Assembly: GCF_019802345.1 (NCBI RefSeq)
Contig: NZ_JAINDZ010000042.1
Span: 1-38,174, forward strand
Source: Methylosinus sp. Sm6
Lineage (GTDB): Bacteria; Pseudomonadota; Alphaproteobacteria; Rhizobiales; Beijerinckiaceae
Direction: 5' to 3'
Length of the DNA stretch: 38,174 nt
Shown: one piece after another, positions 3,817-11,354 of the stretch
Numbering within the stretch: the stretch's first letter is position 1
How the letters are laid out: every line of letters starts with the position of its first letter
Made by a program: the position numbers and the translations under genes
Notes under the pieces: generated by a model
What the model saw: the letters and a program-made list of their open reading frames with translations, nothing else
The model's database searches: none
Told to the model about the DNA's origin: nothing

Positions 3817-6800
3817 TCACGACACCGCCCGCGCCAGCGCGTCGATCTGCGCTGTGGTCATGCCCGCGAGCTGCGTCGTCGTGAACGCCGCCACCTGATT
3901 GCCGTTCAGCGCCTCGAGCTCGGTGGTGGTCAGCGCCGCGATCGCCGTCGTCGAGAAGGCCGCGACCTGCGTCGTCGTCAGCCCCGAGAGCTGCCGGCCG
4001 GAGAAGGATGCGAGCGTCGTGCTCGCGAGATTATTGAGCTGCTGCGTCGTCAGCGCGCCGACCTGAGTCGAGGTCAGCGCGGAAAATTGCGCGTCGGTGA
4101 GAGCGGAGAGCGACGTCGTCGTCAGATCGACGATCTGTGTCGTCGCGAGCGCGGCCACTTGCGTCGTGTCGAGCGCGCCGAGCTGCGTCGTCGTCAGCGC
4201 GCGCAGCTGCTCACGGATCAGGCCGGAGAGCTGGGTCTCCGTCAATGCGTCGATCTCGGTGGCAGTGAGCGCCTGCGCCTGCGTCGCCGTCAACGCGCCG
4301 AGCTGCGTCGCCTGAAGTCCGGAAAACTGCGTCTCGGTCAGCGTCTCGATCTGCGTCGTCGTCAACCCCGCGATTCCATCGCTCGAAAAGGCGCCGATCT
4401 GCGTCGCCGACAGAGCGGAAAACTGCGTCGACGACAGCGCCGCCGCCTGAGTCGGCGTGAAGCCGCTCATCTCCGTGGTCGAGAGCAGCGCGATCTGCGT
4501 CGTGGCGAGGCTCGCCAATTGCGCCATGGTCAGCGCCCCGAAGGCGGTGGCCGAAATGCTGGAGAATTGCGTCGTCGTCAGCGCGGCGAGCTCTGACGGA
4601 TCGAGGCCGGCGATCGCCGTCGGCGAGAGCGCGGCGATCTGCGTTGCGGTCAAGGCGGCGGACTGAGAGGCGGAGAGCGCGGCGATCTGCGTTACGACCA
4701 AGCCGGAGACTCCGGTCGAGGAGAGCGCGGCGATCTGCGCGGCGGAGAGCGCTTGCAGATCAGTGGCGTCGAGCGTGGCGACCTGTGTCGAGGTCAATCC
4801 GCCGAGCTCGGTCGCGGTGAGCTGCTTGAGCTGCGTCGTCGTCAGCGCGTCGAATTGCGTCGTGTCGAAGGCGCCGATCGCGGTCGAGGAGAAGGCGGCG
4901 AGCTGCGTGCTGGTGAGCGCGGCGAGGCGCGTGGTCGTGAGGCCGGCGACGCCGGTGGAGGCGAAGCCGGCGATCTGCGCGGCGGAGAGCGCGGAGAATT
5001 GCGTCGTGGCGAGGGCGGCGACTTCGGTCTGCGTCAGGCCGCTGACCGCGGCGCTCGACAGCGCGCCGATCTGCGTCGTCGTGAACAGGGCGAGCTGCGT
5101 CGTCGTCAGGGCGCCGGCGTGCGTCGCCGTCAGACCTGTGAGCTGCGTCGTCGTCAGCTCGCCGATCTGCGTCGATGTGAGCGCCGCGACCTGCGTCGTC
5201 GTCAGCGCCGCTATGCCGGTCGAGGCGAGGCTGCGGAACTGCGTCGTCGTCAGCGCGCCGATCTCCTGCGGCGTCAGCCCGGAGACGGCGGTCGTCGACA
5301 GCGCCGCGATCTGGGTCGAGGTGACGGTCGCGAGCTGAGTGGTCGCGAAGAGTCCGATCTGCGAGGCGGTAAGGCCGGCGATCGCGGCCGTCGTGAGCGC
5401 GCGGATCGCGGTGGTCGTCAGCGCGGCGAGCTGCGTCGCATCGAGTTCCGCGATCTGCGTCGAGACGAGTCCGCGCGCCTGCGTCGCGGTGAGAGACGCG
5501 ACCTCCGTCGTGGTCAGCGCGTCGATCTGACTCGTGGCGAGCGCGCCGATCTGGGTCGCGGCGAGCGCGGCGATCTGCGTGTCGACGAGCTCGGCGAGCC
5601 GCGTCGCGGTGAGGCCGGAGATCGCCGTGGTCGAAAGCGCGGCGATCTGCGTCGTCGCGAGGGCGTCGAACTGTGTCTCGGCCAGGCTCGCCATTTGCGT
5701 CTGCGTGAGGCCGGCGAGCTCGGTCGTCGTCAGCGCCGTGATGTCGGCGGTCGTGAGGGCGGAGAGCCCGGTCGTCGTCACGGCGCCGAGCTGAACGGCG
5801 CTCAGCGCACGCAGCTGCGTCGTCGCCAGCGCGTCGAGCGCGCTGGTCGTCAAGGCGGCGACGGCGGTGGTCGATAGGCCGGCAATCTGCGCGCTCGTCA
5901 GAGCCGCGATCTGATCGAGGCCGAGCGCGGCGATCTGCGTCGCGCCGAGCGCGTTCATTTGAGTGGACGTCAGCGCGCGCAGCTGCGTCGTCGAAAGGCC
6001 GGCGATCACGGTCGCGTTCAGCGCGCCGACGGCACTATAGGAGAGAGCCGCGATCTGCGTCGTCGACAGCGCGCCGACCTCGGTCGTCGTCAGCGCCGCC
6101 GCCTGTGTGGAGGTCAGTCCGCCGATCTCGGTGGTCGTCAGCGCGGCGAGCTGCGTCGTCGACAGCGCGTCGATCTGTGATGTCGTCAGCGCGCCGATCT
6201 GCGTGGCGGCGAGGCCGCGCAATTGCGTCGTCGTCAGCGTCGTCAGCGCGCTCGTCGACAGGCTCGACAAGGCGTCCGAGGAGAGGCCTGAGAGCTGGCG
6301 CGAGGACAAAGCGGCGAGCTGCGTCGACGTGAGCGCGGCGATCTGCGTGTCGACGAGCGCCGCCATCTGCGTCGTCGCCAGAGCGCCGATCTGCGTGACG
6401 CTCAGCGCGGCGATGTCCGTGCTCGACAATCCGCCGAGGCCGGCCGTCGAAAGCGCCGCCATCTGCGTTGTCGTGAAGGCCGCGAGCTGCGCTTCGTCGA
6501 GCGCGGCGATCTGCGTGTCCGCGAGGGCGCGCAGCTGTGTCGCCGTCACGGCGCCGATCTGCGTCGTCGACAGCGTCGCGACGTCGGTGGTCGACATGGC
6601 GCTGAACGCGGCTGCTCCGATGGCGGCGACCTGCGTGGTCGTGAGCGCGCCGATCTGCGTCGTCGTCAGCGCGCGGATTTGCGTCGCGCCGATGCCGACC
6701 AGCGCCGTCGACGCCAGCGCGCCCACCTGTGTCGTCGAGAGCGCTGCGATCTGCGTCTCCGCCATCGCCGCAAGCTGCGCCGAGGTCAGCGAGCGAATTT

Positions 6801-9099
6801 GCTGCGTCGTCAGCCCGGCCGCCTCGGTCGTCGAGAGTCCGGCGACGGCGGTGGCCGAGAACGCCGAGATTTGCGTCGTCTGCAACACTGCGAGCTGCGA
6901 TGCGGTCAAGGCCCCGAGCTGATCGGCGGAGAGGCTCTTGAGCTGAGTCGTCTTCATCGCCGCGATCTGCGTCGTGGAGACGCCGGCGATCTGCTGCGTC
7001 GAGAGGCCGGCGAGCGCGGCGGAGGCGAGCGCCGCGAATTGCGCCGTCGTCAGCGCGTCGAGCTGCGTCGCCGAGAAATCATCGAGCTGCGACGAAACGA
7101 AGGCGGCAAGATCGGTCGTCGTGAGCGCTGCGAGCTGATCCGCGCCAAAGGCGGCGATCTGCGTCTCGTTCAGCGCGCGCAGCTGCGCGGCGGTCAGCGC
7201 ATCGAGCTGGGTGGAGGCGAGGCCGGCGATCTGCCCGCTGGTGAGGCCGCCGACGCCGGTGGTCGACAGGCCGGCGATTTGTGTGGTCGAGAGCGCCGCC
7301 AGCTGCGTCTGCGTCAACAATTCCACCTGCGTGTCGGCCAGCCCCGAGAGCGCGCGCGAGGTCAGCGCGGCGAGCTGTGTCGTGGACAGCGCGTCGATCT
7401 GCGCCGCGTCGAGCGAAGCGAGCGCGAGCGAGCCCAGTCCTGCGACTTGCGTCGTGGTGAGAGCGGCGATGCGCGTCGTCGTGAACGAGTCGAGCTGCGT
7501 CGTCGTCAGCGCCGCGATCTCGGTCGAGGTCAGCGTGGCGAATTGTGTGGACGAGAGGCGCGCGAGCGTCGCCGCGCTCGCGGCGGCTATTTGCGCCGCG
7601 GACAGGCGCTCGACCAGCAGCACCTGCAGCTCCGTCGTCGTCAGCGCGTCGAGCTGCGTCGAGGTGAGGGCGCGCGCCTGCGTCGTCGTGAGCGCGGCGA
7701 GCTGCGTCGTCGTCAGCCGGTGGAGCGCGTCCGCTCCCAAGCCGCCGATCTGCGCCGCCGTCAGAGCGGCGGCCTGCGTCGTCGTGAAGGCCTGGATTTC
7801 GGTCGACGAGAGCGCGTTGAGGAATGTGGTCGCGAGAGCGGCGACCTGCGTCGTGAGCAGTTCGGCGAGCTGCGTCGACGAGAGATCGCCGCGCCCGCTC
7901 GCCGTGAGCGCGGAAATTTGCGCCGCCGAGAGCCGCGCCGCCGGCAGCGCTCTGATCTCCGTCGTGGACATGGCGCCGATCTGGGTCGTGGTGAGGGCGC
8001 GCGCCTGCGTCGTCGTGAGGGCGCCGATCTGCGTCGTCGTGAGATTGTCGATCTGCGTCGAGGCGAGCCCGGCGATCTGCGCCGCGGTGAGCGCCGCGGC
8101 CTGGGTCGTCGTCAAGGATCGCAGCTCTGTCGCATCGAGGCTGTTGATCGAGGTCGTCGAAAGCGCGGCGATCTGCGTCGCCGTGAAGGCGGCGATTTGA
8201 GTCGAGGAGAGATTGCCGAAGGCGGTGGTCGACAGACTGGCGATCTGCGCATAGGACAAGCCGGCGACCGGCAGCGCCTCGATCTGCGTCGCCGTCAGGC
8301 CGGTGAGCTGCGTTTGGGTCAGGCTGCGGACCTGCGTCGTCGTCAGCGCGGAGAGCTGCGTCGTCGTGAGATTGTCGATCGTCGTCTTGGTGAGCGCGGC
8401 GATCTGCGTCGCCGCGAGGCCCGCCGCCTGCGTCGGCGTCAGCGATTGCAGATCCTCGGCGGAAAGGCTGTTGATCGCGGTCGTCGAAAACGCGCCGATC
8501 TGCGTCGCGCTCAGGGAATCGATCTGCGTCGTCGTCAGATTGTCGACTTCGGTCACGTTGAGCTTGGCGATCTGCCCGGCCGAGAGATTGCCGACGGTCA
8601 AGGCGATGATCTGATCGAGCGACATCGCATTGAGCTGCGTCGCGGTGAGGCTGCGCACCTGGGTGGTGGTCAGTCCGCCGAGCTGCGTCGTCGTGAGATT
8701 GGCGAGCTGCGTCGTCGTCAAAGTGGCGATCTGCGAGGCGGCGAGCGCATGGAGCTGCGTCTCGCTCAGCGAGCGAACCTCCGTCGAGGTGAGGTCATTG
8801 ACTTCCGAGGAGGTCAGCGCGGCGATCTGCGTCGTCGTGAACGCGGCGAGATCCTCCTGCGCCAGCAGCTCGAATTGCGTCAGATCGAGCCCCATCAGCG
8901 CGGCCCGCGACAGAGCGGCCACCTGTGTCGAGACCAGAGCCTCGAGATTTGTCGTCGAGAGGCTGTTGAGCTGCGTCGCGGTGAGCGCGGCGACCTGCGA
9001 CGTGGAGAAGGCTTCTATATCTTCCGTGTCGAGCTGGCGCATGATGGTCGTCGTGAGATGGGCGACCTGCCAGGTGGTGAGGGAGGAAATGATCGACAT
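3817..9099 (-). CDS. Giant octapeptide-repeat protein (LTTTQ repeats)
   Basis: A 1760-residue protein built almost entirely of about 220 octads with consensus L-[TS]-T-T-Q-[ILV]-x-[AGS]. Leu and the branched residue are strictly spaced 5 then 3. It is rich in Thr, Ala, Leu and Gln, has very few charged residues, no Cys that I saw, and one Trp near the N-terminus (TTWQ). There is no cleavable signal peptide at MSIISSLTTWQV. An octad with a T-x-x-Q capping pattern could give short helices in a solenoid or a beta-solenoid; sequence alone does not decide. An N-terminal 109-residue super-repeat is described separately. A GCGAGG motif precedes the ATG. Large surface adhesins and Type I-secreted proteins can look like this, but no anchoring or secretion domain is visible and no transporter gene is adjacent. 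Function unknown. Confidence 0.85.
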   Translation of the reverse strand: MSIISSLTTWQVAHLTTTIMRQLDTEDIEAFSTSQVAALTATQLNSLSTTNLEALVSTQVAALSRAALMGLDLTQFELLAQEDLAAFTTTQIAALTSSEVNDLTSTEVRSLSETQLHALAASQIATLTTTQLANLTTTQLGGLTTTQVRSLTATQLNAMSLDQIIALTVGNLSAGQIAKLNVTEVDNLTTTQIDSLSATQIGAFSTTAINSLSAEDLQSLTPTQAAGLAATQIAALTKTTIDNLTTTQLSALTTTQVRSLTQTQLTGLTATQIEALPVAGLSYAQIASLSTTAFGNLSSTQIAAFTATQIAALSTTSINSLDATELRSLTTTQAAALTAAQIAGLASTQIDNLTTTQIGALTTTQARALTTTQIGAMSTTEIRALPAARLSAAQISALTASGRGDLSSTQLAELLTTQVAALATTFLNALSSTEIQAFTTTQAAALTAAQIGGLGADALHRLTTTQLAALTTTQARALTSTQLDALTTTELQVLLVERLSAAQIAAASAATLARLSSTQFATLTSTEIAALTTTQLDSFTTTRIAALTTTQVAGLGSLALASLDAAQIDALSTTQLAALTSRALSGLADTQVELLTQTQLAALSTTQIAGLSTTGVGGLTSGQIAGLASTQLDALTAAQLRALNETQIAAFGADQLAALTTTDLAAFVSSQLDDFSATQLDALTTAQFAALASAALAGLSTQQIAGVSTTQIAAMKTTQLKSLSADQLGALTASQLAVLQTTQISAFSATAVAGLSTTEAAGLTTQQIRSLTSAQLAAMAETQIAALSTTQVGALASTALVGIGATQIRALTTTQIGALTTTQVAAIGAAAFSAMSTTDVATLSTTQIGAVTATQLRALADTQIAALDEAQLAAFTTTQMAALSTAGLGGLSSTDIAALSVTQIGALATTQMAALVDTQIAALTSTQLAALSSRQLSGLSSDALSSLSTSALTTLTTTQLRGLAATQIGALTTSQIDALSTTQLAALTTTEIGGLTSTQAAALTTTEVGALSTTQIAALSYSAVGALNATVIAGLSTTQLRALTSTQMNALGATQIAALGLDQIAALTSAQIAGLSTTAVAALTTSALDALATTQLRALSAVQLGAVTTTGLSALTTADITALTTTELAGLTQTQMASLAETQFDALATTQIAALSTTAISGLTATRLAELVDTQIAALAATQIGALATSQIDALTTTEVASLTATQARGLVSTQIAELDATQLAALTTTAIRALTTAAIAGLTASQIGLFATTQLATVTSTQIAALSTTAVSGLTPQEIGALTTTQFRSLASTGIAALTTTQVAALTSTQIGELTTTQLTGLTATHAGALTTTQLALFTTTQIGALSSAAVSGLTQTEVAALATTQFSALSAAQIAGFASTGVAGLTTTRLAALTSTQLAAFSSTAIGAFDTTQFDALTTTQLKQLTATELGGLTSTQVATLDATDLQALSAAQIAALSSTGVSGLVVTQIAALSASQSAALTATQIAALSPTAIAGLDPSELAALTTTQFSSISATAFGALTMAQLASLATTQIALLSTTEMSGFTPTQAAALSSTQFSALSATQIGAFSSDGIAGLTTTQIETLTETQFSGLQATQLGALTATQAQALTATEIDALTETQLSGLIREQLRALTTTQLGALDTTQVAALATTQIVDLTTTSLSALTDAQFSALTSTQVGALTTQQLNNLASTTLASFSGRQLSGLTTTQVAAFSTTAIAALTTTELEALNGNQVAAFTTTQLAGMTTAQIDALARAVS
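7480..8815 (-). repeat. 327-bp (109-residue) super-repeat within the octad protein
   Basis: Four copies of a shortened 13-residue unit (8+5 instead of 8+8) occur at residues 164, 273, 382 and 491: IIALTVGNLSAGQ, IEALPVAGLSYAQ, IRALPAARLSAAQ and LQVLLVERLSAAQ. Their codons begin at 8610, 8283, 7956 and 7629, exactly 327 bases apart. The octads between them also match position by position (for example INSL / INSL / LNAL and TTTQVRSL / TTTQARAL / TTTQARAL). This shows that the N-terminal third grew by duplication of 13.6-octad blocks. The outer limits given are approximate. Confidence 0.85.
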
Positions 9100-9254: not shown

Positions 9255-11354
9255 CTATCGGGGGAAGATCACGCGCGTAATCGCCGGGACGCGCTCTCGC
9301 GTCCACGGCAAGCGCATGAGATAGTCGAAAATCAATGCGCGCCATCCGCGGAAGAGGCGATAATCGAGGGTTTCGACCTGCTCGATGCCAGCCCATTCGC
9401 GCAAGGTCGGCGCGATCTCGCTGCGATCAATGCCCCATGGCATGGGCGGGATGGTCAAGCTCCTGCTCGGCCGATAGCCCTTCATCATCCGCTGCGACAT
9501 CCAGCGCGGAATATGGTCGAAGCAAAAGCGCGCCTTTGGAAACCGACGCGCCATATCGGCGATGAGCGCGGCGACATCCGCGGGCTCGAGATACATCAGC
9601 AGGCCCTCGGCGGTGATATAGACCGGGCGTCCCGGCGGAATCTCGTCGAACCAGCGGCGGTCGAGCGCGCTCATCGCGACATGGCGATGATGATCGTCGG
9701 GCGCGATGAAGCGCTCGCGGATCGCGATCGATTCGGGCAGATCGACGGTGATCCACAGCGCCTCGTCGCCGCCGACCCGGTAACGATGCGTCTCCAGGCC
9801 TTCGCCGAGATTGACGATCACGCCATCGGGATGCGCGGCGAGAAAGGCGCGCAGCTCATTATCGAAGACGAGCGCACGATAGGCGTGCGAGGGCCCCGAC
9901 GGTCCGAAGGCGGCGTCGTAGTCATAATCGAGCGCGCGATAGATTTCGAGCGTCTTCGGATCCCTCAGCACCCCATCGGAGCGCATCGCCTCGCCGGCGC
10001 GATTATGCAGCGTCCACAGCATGGTTTCCGGAACGCCGGTGAGATTGGGAGCGACCTTGCCGGCGTCCGCGCGAGCTTGCCCCGCCTCGCGCGCTACCGC
10101 GCGCCAGCCGATGTCGCGCCGGCAGAAACCCTCCGGCCAGTCGATCGCGTCGACGCCGTCATAGGCGATGCGCTGCGCCTCGCTCGCCGTGTCGGCGATC
10201 CCGGTCACATTCAGCACGCGGCCGCCGGCGGCGACGAGGCGCGCGCCGTCGCGGCGCGTGCCGGCATGGGTGACGACGACGCCGGCGATGGCGCGCGCAT
10301 GCTCGAGGCCGCGAATTTCCGTCCCGGCGAGCGGCTGTCCGGGATAGCCTTTCGCCGCCAGCACCACGGTGAGGGCGAAGCGCGGCGAAAAGCGCAGCCG
10401 ACGCTCCGGCAGCGCGCCCTTCGCGGCGGCGAGCATCAACTCCAGCAGATCGTCCTCGAGGCGCGGCAGCATCGCCTGCGTCTCCGGATCGCCGAAGCGC
10501 ACATTGAACTCGATGAGCTCGGGCCCGTGCGCCGTCAGCATCAGTCCCGCGAACAGCGCGCCGGAGAAGGGCGCGTCCATCTCGCGCATCGCGGCGAGGG
10601 TCGGCTCGACGATGCGGGCCATGATCTGCGCTTCGATCTCGTCCGTCACCGCGGGCGCCGGCGAACAGGCGCCCATGCCGCCCGTGTTGGGGCCGGCGTC
10701 GCCTTCGCCGACGCGCTTGTGATCCTGCGCGGAGGCGAAGGGGAGGGCGCGCGTTCCGTCGCAGAGCGCGAAGAAGGAGACCTCCTCGCCCTCGAGCTTC
10801 TCTTCGATCACGACCTCGCCGCCCGATGCGCCAAAGGCGCCGGAGAACATGGTCGCGATGGCGCGCTCGGCCTCGTCGAGCGTTTCGGCGACGACGACGC
10901 CCTTGCCCGCGGCGAGCCCGTCCGCCTTGACCACGATCGGCGCGCCGACGGCGCGGACATGGGCGAGCGCCGCGTCCCTGTCGGAGAAGCGCGCATAAGC
11001 GGCGGTCGGAATGGCGTGGGCGCGGCAGAGATCCTTGACGAAGCCCTTCGAGCCTTCGAGCCGCGCCGCCGCCCGGGAGGGGCCGAACACGAGAACGCCC
11101 GCGGCGCGCAGCATGTCCGCGAGGCCCTCGACCAGCGGCTGCTCGGGCCCGACGACGACGAGGCCGATCTCCTTCTCCGCGCAGAAGCCAGCGACCGCCG
11201 CGTGATCCGCCGGGTCCAGCGCGACGATCTCGCCGAGCTCCGCCAGTCCCGGATTGCCCGGCGCGATGAAGAGGCGCGCGAGCAGGGGGCTGCGCGCGAG
11301 CGCAATCGCGATCGCATGCTCGCGCCCGCCGGAGCCGATGAGGAGAACATTCAT
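9255..11354 (-). CDS. purD: PurD fused to an LCM-family SAM methyltransferase
   Basis: Residues 1-422 are phosphoribosylamine-glycine ligase, the ATP-grasp enzyme of step two of purine synthesis: GSGGREHAI at the start, the [12 protein letters not shown] motif, the [13 protein letters not shown] nucleotide loop and a normal C-terminus ending [17 protein letters not shown]. The frame continues without a stop into about 277 residues of a leucine-carboxyl-methyltransferase-like (PPM1/Tcmp-type) domain: [15 protein letters not shown], the SAM-binding loop [14 protein letters not shown], the DLPE motif and [11 protein letters not shown]. The junction (near 10088) has no in-frame ATG, GTG or TTG start ahead of VPETM that I could find, so a separate methyltransferase start is unlikely. 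The PurD half looks complete and probably supplies the cell's GARS activity. The substrate of the methyltransferase half is unknown. Confidence 0.88.

Follow-up and report, generated by a model that had tools for sequence, protein, structure and literature searches.

An octapeptide-repeat protein of Methylosinus sp. Sm6 with a hidden 3.43-octad period, and OGT-like GT41 enzymes encoded beside its homologues

The window analyzed here, a stretch of 38,174 nucleotides from Methylosinus sp. Sm6 (contig NZ_JAINDZ010000042.1), encodes on its minus strand a protein of 1760 residues built of octapeptide repeats (octads) of the Pfam family PF20080. We report that a second period of 3.43 octads is hidden in this repeat, and that genes for OGT-like enzymes of glycosyltransferase family 41 (GT41) adjoin octad genes of homologues, which is the strongest clue to what these proteins do. 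The repeat itself is already named in Pfam; the period and the dedicated OGT-like partner are new here, and on their combined strength a giant glycosylated solenoid is currently the best explanation. With moderate confidence we propose a giant Thr/Ser-rich solenoid to which a dedicated OGT-like enzyme would attach O-linked sugars in the cytoplasm and which, in some lineages, a type I secretion system (T1SS) would export as a fibre of the surface or matrix. Loci, genomes and contigs are referred to by L, G and C numbers, respectively.

Results

When whole octads are compared along the chain, similarity peaks repeatedly, from one protein to the next, at lags such as 7, 10, 14, 17, 24, 31, 34, 38, 41, 48, 55 and 58, which are near-multiples of 24/7. 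Thirty proteins were tested for this period (the window protein, a paralogue from its own genome and 28 further loci, some of them fragments), and the periodogram peaked at 3.39 to 3.44 octads in 28, corresponding to a period of 3.43 octads or about 27.4 residues. The exceptions were L002 (4.67 octads, with tandem copies of 14 octads dominating) and L027 (3.53, with 35 register breaks). All 30 peaks stood above each of 60 octad permutations, and the window protein peaked at 3.39 octads with a power of 0.37, the maximum after permutation being 0.23. Duplication could also give rise to such a period, but the preferred lags vary by lineage (14, 17, 24, 31 or 48) and all close the same turn.

As a phase control, we compared covariation between octads at lag k with that at lag k+24 over 7040 octads. 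The excess amounted to 0.34, 0.18, 0.34, 0.31, 0.19 and 0.11 at lags 1 to 6 and to between -0.06 and 0.10 at lags 7 to 11, and the excess at lags 3 and 4 would follow from a stacking of octads i+3 and i+4 against octad i. Polar features are striped at the same period, most widely Asp at position 5 (20 of 22 proteins) and residues other than Gln at position 5 (26 of 30), followed by an acidic residue or Asn at position 2 (19 of 27) and Gly at position 8 (17 of 27). Stripes were weak for residues other than Thr at position 4 (9 of 26) and for Asn, Ser or Thr at position 8 (3 of 29), and the core positions were hardly striped at all (5 of 28 and 2 of 21 proteins).

Structure prediction with AlphaFold2 (AF2) gave a helical fold. 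The model of a 24-octad stretch (Table 1), for which the alignment held 70 other segments including five from the window protein, places one helix of 5–6 residues in each octad, and the model of residues 1–533 with 22 other rows (predicted local distance difference test, pLDDT, 89.1; predicted template modelling score, pTM, 0.70) shows short helices in almost all octads, a few of them longer or shorter than the rest. No close fold from the PDB was among the best rows of the fold searches made with these models. We take the T-x-x-Q at octad positions 2–5 to resemble a helix-capping box. Given the 3.43-octad period, the covariation of octad i with i+3 and i+4 and the predicted helix per octad, we read the protein as a probable alpha-solenoid that packs about 3.4 helices into each turn and carries stripes on its surface. 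This supports the original prediction, made from the sequence alone, that the fold must be a regular solenoid or fibre.

The enzyme partner emerged from 38 homologous loci detected in a scan of a genome collection, mostly in Alphaproteobacteria and some in Betaproteobacteria. A GT41-related frame lies at most 165 nt from the octad frame in 29 of them (BLAST to seeds; distances between open frames), downstream on the same strand in 26 and upstream and divergent in three (L008, L025, L032). Pfam confirmed PF13844 in all nine of the adjacent frames scanned, which came from seven loci, and TPRs in most of these. Of the nine loci lacking an adjacent GT41 frame, L012, L022 and L033 have both flanks, and L013, L014, L039, L041, L043 and L044 miss one or both; a weak profile match upstream in L013 (110 bits) was not counted as a GT41 neighbor. 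No other common neighbor appeared when Pfam was run on 68 frames flanking the octad genes of 13 loci, drawn from 151 candidates with GT41 frames and separately scanned frames left out: among the best 25 of 113 families, sugar epimerases accounted for four of the 68, ABC_tran for two and HlyD_3 for two. All-versus-all clustering of neighbors suffered from noise, since GC-rich genes have long antisense frames that group with one another, and only clusters checked with Pfam or seeds were used. Methyltransferases of the FkbM or Methyltransf_24 type directly follow the linked GT41 gene in three loci (L009:19645-21933, L037:13543-14481, L034:16851-17489); these are perhaps glycan-tailoring enzymes.

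Octad matches also occur in 55 plasmid records, five of which were examined. On two Rhizobium plasmids the GT41 gene is the neighboring gene, 905 and 251 nt away; a Niveispirillum record, the same as that of G204 by position, has two GT41 genes about 4 kb upstream, and the records of L102 and L103 contain no GT41 gene within 10 kb. Wherever the octad feature is named among the plasmid-record rows listed, it is a "hypothetical protein". The octad-GT41 pair on the plasmid of Rhizobium sp. CCGE532 (L100) lies amid genes for UDP-galactopyranose mutase, other glycosyltransferases and curlin.

Octad loci of the genus are of two kinds, an orphan kind, to which the window gene belongs, and an octad-GT41 cassette, which is complete in G002, G003 and G006. 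PF20080 matches number 72 in the window's own genome and include a second octad gene, which runs off the end of contig C70; contig C84 starts with the end of an octad gene followed by a GT41 gene, and we infer that the two parts belong to one gene. The window gene is an orphan paralogue, and because the cassette enzyme is encoded elsewhere in the genome, the window protein would be modified in trans. A further frame is kept after the GT41 gene in the genus cassette (L058:2394-4361, L065:12152-13669) and matches no family of Pfam or NCBIfam at the limits applied.

The cassette enzyme of this genome is an OGT-like GT41 protein, with a PF13844 match of 6.8e-83 and TPRs. Its closest solved relatives by sequence are the OGT 110-kDa subunit (7yea, 8e-82), which we take to be human OGT, and XcOGT (2jlb, 2e-78); it matched SPINDLY at 5e-53 and chain 8p0q, presumably NGT, at only 3e-5. 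Three residues invariant in 12 linked GT41 enzymes, H273, K442 and H520, presumably match the catalytic residues of OGT. An N-glycosyltransferase system like that of HMW1C was considered and rejected, the linked enzyme being far closer to OGT than to 8p0q and the window protein having only nine N-x-S/T sequons.

A tree was made of 76 GT41 proteins, 40 from adjacent genes, 13 from near ones and 23 hand-picked from the top family matches in octad-free genomes or places; two of 78 matches were dropped as short or weak, and the method was a quick one that left some long branches. One branch, with a Shimodaira-Hasegawa-like approximate likelihood ratio of 99, unites 50 of the 76 rows, all of them octad-linked. 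The enzymes of L018/L027 and of L071 fall outside it, which suggests that the linkage arose more than once. The enzyme of L031, which lies with an octad gene on a contig labelled Marinimicrobia, pairs closely with that of L034, a metagenome-assembled genome (MAG) of Rhodospirillaceae, and its presence on such a contig would reflect either mis-binning or transfer.

Co-occurrence was assessed with a profile built on the 12 linked enzymes and a threshold of 900 bits, in a set of relatives (ten of whose genomes are from one genus) and in a sample of the class. Among the relatives, scores above the threshold came from 11 of the 12 genomes with octads and from 0 of the 48 without; in the class sample the corresponding figures were 4 of 6 and 0 of 283. 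The next-best scores were 530 and 518. Pooled, this gives 14 of 17 octad genomes against 0 of 328 others (Fisher 2e-22; by genus 2e-4 and 6e-6), with p values that serve as a guide only, since two profile rows are from the window's genus, L019 is close to G228 and the genomes are related. The octad genomes under 900 bits are G013, with a nearby enzyme at 489, G091 and G179. Co-occurrence with PF13844 as such was weaker (relatives, 12 of 12 against 10 of 48, Fisher 5e-7; class sample, 5 of 6 against 101 of 283, Fisher 0.03). G007, a genome of the window's genus, lacks both octads and GT41, and Caulobacter vibrioides has matches to PF20080 and PF13844 alike. Two further genomes deserve mention: G179 carries PF20080 matches (C1:188632-189057) in a genome of 2.0 Mb that has no PF13844 match, and G348, the Magnetococcales MAG of L013, has 47 PF13844 matches, compared with 0–8 in ten other genomes searched.

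Regarding the window gene itself, the octad-repeat frame that had been predicted was confirmed, and lies on the minus strand. It starts with ATG, has no internal stop, and resolves by profile fit into 220 octads, 208 of them distinct, with the consensus L-[TS]-[TAS]-T-Q-[ILV]-A-A. Leu occupies position 1 in 84% of octads, and the position is hydrophobic practically throughout; Ile, Leu or Val fills position 6 in 84%, Thr fills position 4 in 71% and Gln fills position 5 in 66%. With the profile trained on the window protein itself, the fit scored +1504 for that protein, compared with an average of -1073 over 20 shuffled ones, and identity autocorrelation was 0.36–0.38 at lags 8, 16, 24 and 32 and 0.06–0.14 at the remaining lags up to 33. 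The two hydrophobic positions had been said to keep a strict 5+3 spacing: 217 of 220 octads do fit (L/I/V/M/F at position 1 with L/I/V/M/F/A at position 6), and strictness gives way at four internal octads trimmed to five residues, spaced exactly 109 residues apart (Table 1). This spacing is almost exactly four turns at 27.4 residues per turn. A fifth register break is marked in the last residues of the protein.

The frame is coding, as judged from a GC content of 0.595, 0.575 and 0.902 at codon positions 1, 2 and 3 and a ratio of nonsynonymous to synonymous substitution (dN/dS) of about 0.45 against two same-genus orthologues (L062, L064). The alignment to these orthologues contains exactly 110 gap columns, near one 109-residue super-unit. 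That the protein has a single Trp was stated correctly, and almost no charge was too strong a description: D/E/K/R make up 7.5%, the net charge is -56 and the isoelectric point 4.1. Ser and Thr constitute 30% of the residues, as compared with 24–38% in GT41-linked members.

A Pfam search placed the repeat in PF20080 (ALTTAQ_rpt; E 1e-214, 694 bits against a cut-off of 26.4, 61 stretches), and an NCBIfam scan gave no match near any curated cut-off. PF23952 (LRR_EndoS; 37.1, cut-off 27.9) and PF15335 (CAAP1; 42.7, cut-off 25) also matched and are regarded as cross-matches because PF20080 is far stronger. The occurrence of similar repeats in proteobacterial proteins had been suggested, rightly so in view of this family and of the 38 homologous loci, some of which are on MAG contigs labelled Magnetococcales, Nitrospinota and Marinimicrobia. 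The frames are repeat almost from end to end and span 416 to 5350 residues where the contig end spares them (L040, whose frame is broken, was left out), and many have an FTTTQ[ILV]..M-like stretch close to the C-terminus. In three betaproteobacterial members, L018 (5350 residues), L022 and L027, the repeat is joined by an additional C-terminal domain that contains DxNGDG motifs; it matches EF-hand models weakly in L018 and L022 and not in L027.

Pfam's output gives no more than a name for the repeat, and this analysis adds the period, the partnership with OGT-like enzymes and the link to export. The statement that no function has been assigned still stands in the open-licence literature of PubMed Central (PMC; bioRxiv lay outside the search), where none of the papers listed gave a function for PF20080 or dealt with the pairing with GT41; papers matching the string PF20080 look unrelated by title, and ALTTAQ, HeliScrew and LTTTQIAAL gave no match. 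A solved sequence relative does exist. PDB 9zem, HeliScrew4, is the best by sequence (phmmer 4e-13 with the whole protein, 2e-14 with 400 residues) and shares octads of the form L[ST]PxQIAA (LTPEQIAA type), differing in its length of 120 residues and its Pro/Glu-rich octads; from these octads and its name it appears to be engineered. It was not among the best 50 rows of either fold search. Other repeat classes do not fit. A leucine-rich repeat has units of 20–30 residues with a beta-strand LxxLxL, whereas the period here is 8 and the AF2 models are helical without strands; RTX calcium-binding repeats follow GGxGxDxUx, and no RTX family was among the Pfam matches of the window protein at E values up to 1.

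Secretion genes accompany part of the family. An HlyB-like ABC gene lies 1–7 kb from the octad gene in 12 of the 38 loci, L025 included, and the ABC genes of those loci are 60–71% identical to that of L025 by BLAST. The L025 frame is cut by the contig end and matches HlyB best (2.5e-142, 476 bits; whole-protein cut-off 726); HlyD adjoins the ABC gene in all four loci checked. In the genomes of L018 and L027 an HlyB-like ABC gene lies 10–11 kb from the GT41 gene on the same contig (664 and 672 bits, below the cut-off). The window's own genome encodes an HlyB ABC protein at 918 bits, over the curated cut-off, on another contig than the window, and ABC proteins over the HlyB or PrtD cut-off were found in G000, G006, G013 and the genomes of L009, L015, L020 and L022. 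The proposed check of homologues for T1SS neighbors was positive at the 12 loci and not at the window. Since linked or above-cut-off transporters occur in part of the octad genomes, export is supported for some lineages only. The sole PF13844 gene of G346, the Duganella genome of L022, lies about 11 kb from an HlyB-like ABC gene (642 bits) on the same contig.

Discussion

We suggest the following model. Each octad would contribute one helix of 5–6 residues that buries residues 1 and 6 in the core and is probably capped by the T-x-x-Q at positions 2–5. At about 3.43 octads per turn, 220 octads would make about 64 turns, and the rod would measure about 60 nm if each stacked helix adds about 1 nm. 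Thr and Ser at positions 2–4 are the likely acceptors for a cytoplasmic TPR-GT41 enzyme of the OGT type, and the cassette enzyme would probably modify the window protein in trans. In some lineages the glycosylated solenoid may then be exported by type I secretion and serve at the surface or in the matrix in adhesion, spacing or protection. A more specific version, which we offer tentatively and with less conviction, is that the TPR superhelix of the enzyme tracks along hundreds of Thr-Thr-Thr caps before export, producing a rod of at least 60 nm with stripes of sugar at the 3.43-octad turn, and that the pairing was assembled repeatedly. Under this version the solenoid would be a preferred substrate of OGT, because the pairing appears to have been assembled separately in an alphaproteobacterial clade and with enzymes of Gallionella/Nitrosomonadales.

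Several results weigh against the glycosylated solenoid and should temper it. No PF13844 match was found on the window's contig in the search of its own genome; among octad genes whose flanks are available, those without a nearby GT41 gene include L012, L022, L033, L093, L099, L102, L103 and the orthologues of the window gene, and a search of the L012 genome gave no match to GT41 anywhere. The share of Thr or Ser at position 4, tried as a mark of glycosylated members, gave a mixed result: it ranges from 14% to 89% over 24 GT41-linked members, does not track the enzyme (L025, with a linked GT41, has only 14%), and is 60, 15 and 14% in three members with both flanks and no GT41. Charge is 0.11–0.13 in these three and 0.03–0.10 in the 24 linked members, although three cases prove little. 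As to the turn, the window protein's peak power is the second lowest among the 30 proteins, only two of ten face features are significant in it (G8 and non-Q5), and octad permutation is an incomplete null because tandem duplication also gives periodic similarity. Helix length per octad, used as a probe of the turn, was not significant in the 24-octad model (p 0.08) or in three runs of the longer one (p 0.55, 0.71 and 0.11), and was dropped. As to export, none of the 12 scanned frames neighboring the window gene is a type I secretion gene, and no ABC protein over the HlyB or PrtD cut-offs was found in G004, which holds a syntenic orthologue of the window gene, nor in G007, G018 or the genomes of L007, L010, L012, L033 and L038.

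Some of these results could be accommodated by other explanations. The window's orphan paralogue might be an unmodified solenoid with another role, only the cassette paralogue being glycosylated. We regard this as a possibility to be taken seriously, if somewhat doubtful: no GT41 gene lies beside the window gene or in the examined stretches around its genus relatives L061, L062, L064 and L066, and L012, L022, L033 and L099 likewise lack one nearby, but the cassette enzyme is present in the same genome, on C84, and the Ser and Thr content of the window copy is like that of linked members. The unmodified reading concerns the window copy. A different objection is that the glycosylated protein stays in the cytoplasm as a scaffold or filament that organizes proteins or stores sugar, the nearby T1SS genes serving other cargo. 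The N-terminus (MSIISSLTTWQ...) shows no signal sequence by eye, and several octad genomes, G004 included, are without a T1SS transporter over the curated cut-offs; type I secretion, however, needs no N-terminal signal. The linked HlyB-like transporters in 12 of 38 loci, the extra C-terminal domain of betaproteobacterial members and the transporters at 10–11 kb in L018 and L027 likewise speak against a purely cytoplasmic role, which we consider unlikely even though the TPR-glycosyltransferase FlmG of Caulobacter acts in the cytoplasm according to excerpts of PMC7591256.

Still less probable, in our judgment, is that the octad protein serves the TPR domain as a platform for docking or as a chaperone platform, and that GT41 modifies a third protein. 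TPR domains do bind partners, as FlmG binds flagellins in those excerpts (PMC7591256), and the further conserved frame after GT41 in the genus cassette could encode such a protein. Yet it is the octad and GT41 genes that recur as a pair across orders, no other family being common in the scanned flanks, and the repeat is rich in hydroxyl residues.

Two known systems resemble the proposed glycosylated solenoid. FlmG of Caulobacter crescentus, described in part of PMC7591256 as a cytoplasmic protein with TPR and GT-B domains that binds and O-glycosylates flagellins, offers the likeness of a cytoplasmic TPR enzyme modifying an exported filament protein, as we suppose for the octad proteins; it differs in that the substrate is flagellin, and the term GT41 is absent from the main text of that paper. 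Flagellin glycosylation of this type was rejected for the window protein, which has no flagellin family match in Pfam. HMW1C is a GT41 enzyme encoded with the giant exported adhesin HMW1 and acting in the cytoplasm before export, according to passages of PMC3983070, and the likeness lies in a GT41 gene paired with that of a giant protein, here one that may be exported. The same passages mark the differences: N-linkage, an AAD fold instead of TPR and two-partner secretion (PMC3983070).

Beside HMW1C/HMW1 and FlmG/flagellin, the octad proteins would be another pairing of a cytoplasmic glycosyltransferase with an exported giant fibre protein. A repeat family that was named but unexplained thereby gains a testable function and a physical model, and the 3.43-octad period stands as a prediction about its structure. 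Many intracellular proteins are substrates of human OGT. If our proposal is correct, nature provides an OGT-like enzyme with one defined substrate and hundreds of near-identical acceptor sites, a system useful for asking how TPR superhelices choose their substrates, and bacteria possess an unrecognized route to a sugar-decorated fibre. The original interpretation, in which a surface fibre, an adhesin, an S-layer-like protein or an intracellular scaffold were named as possible roles, is as a whole partly supported; none of the results bears on the S-layer-like role.

Features of the window

Table 1. Octad-repeat gene of the window and its parts
Feature	Position	Strand	Basis
Octad-repeat protein, 1760 aa, 176 kDa, 220 octads, PF20080	3817..9099	minus	open reading frame, Pfam, profile fit
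N-terminal segment, residues 1-30, MSIISSLTTWQVAHLTTTIMRQLDTEDIEA	9010..9099	minus	in register with N-termini of 22 aligned homologues
Shortened octad 1, residues 167-171, LTVGN	8587..8601	minus	position read from profile fit
Shortened octad 2, residues 276-280, LPVAG, 109 residues past shortened octad 1	8260..8274	minus	profile fit
Shortened octad 3, residues 385-389, LPAAR, 109 residues past shortened octad 2	7933..7947	minus	profile fit
Shortened octad 4, residues 494-498, LLVER, 109 residues past shortened octad 3	7606..7620	minus	profile fit
24-octad stretch (192 aa) modelled by AF2	5302..5877	minus	pLDDT 95.8, pTM 0.85
C-terminal segment, last 40 residues, with ..AAFTTTQLAGMTTAQIDALARAVS	3820..3939	minus	sequence

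The neighbors of the octad gene in the window (M24 peptidase, TonB-like, purD, CHAD and NicO) are shared with G004, and this set was not seen in the examined stretches of G002, G006 and G009. The purD gene (TIGR00877; window 9255-11354, minus strand) is fused at its C-terminal end to a SAM-dependent methyltransferase-like domain (PF04072), which also matches TIGR00027 below the cut-off of that model.

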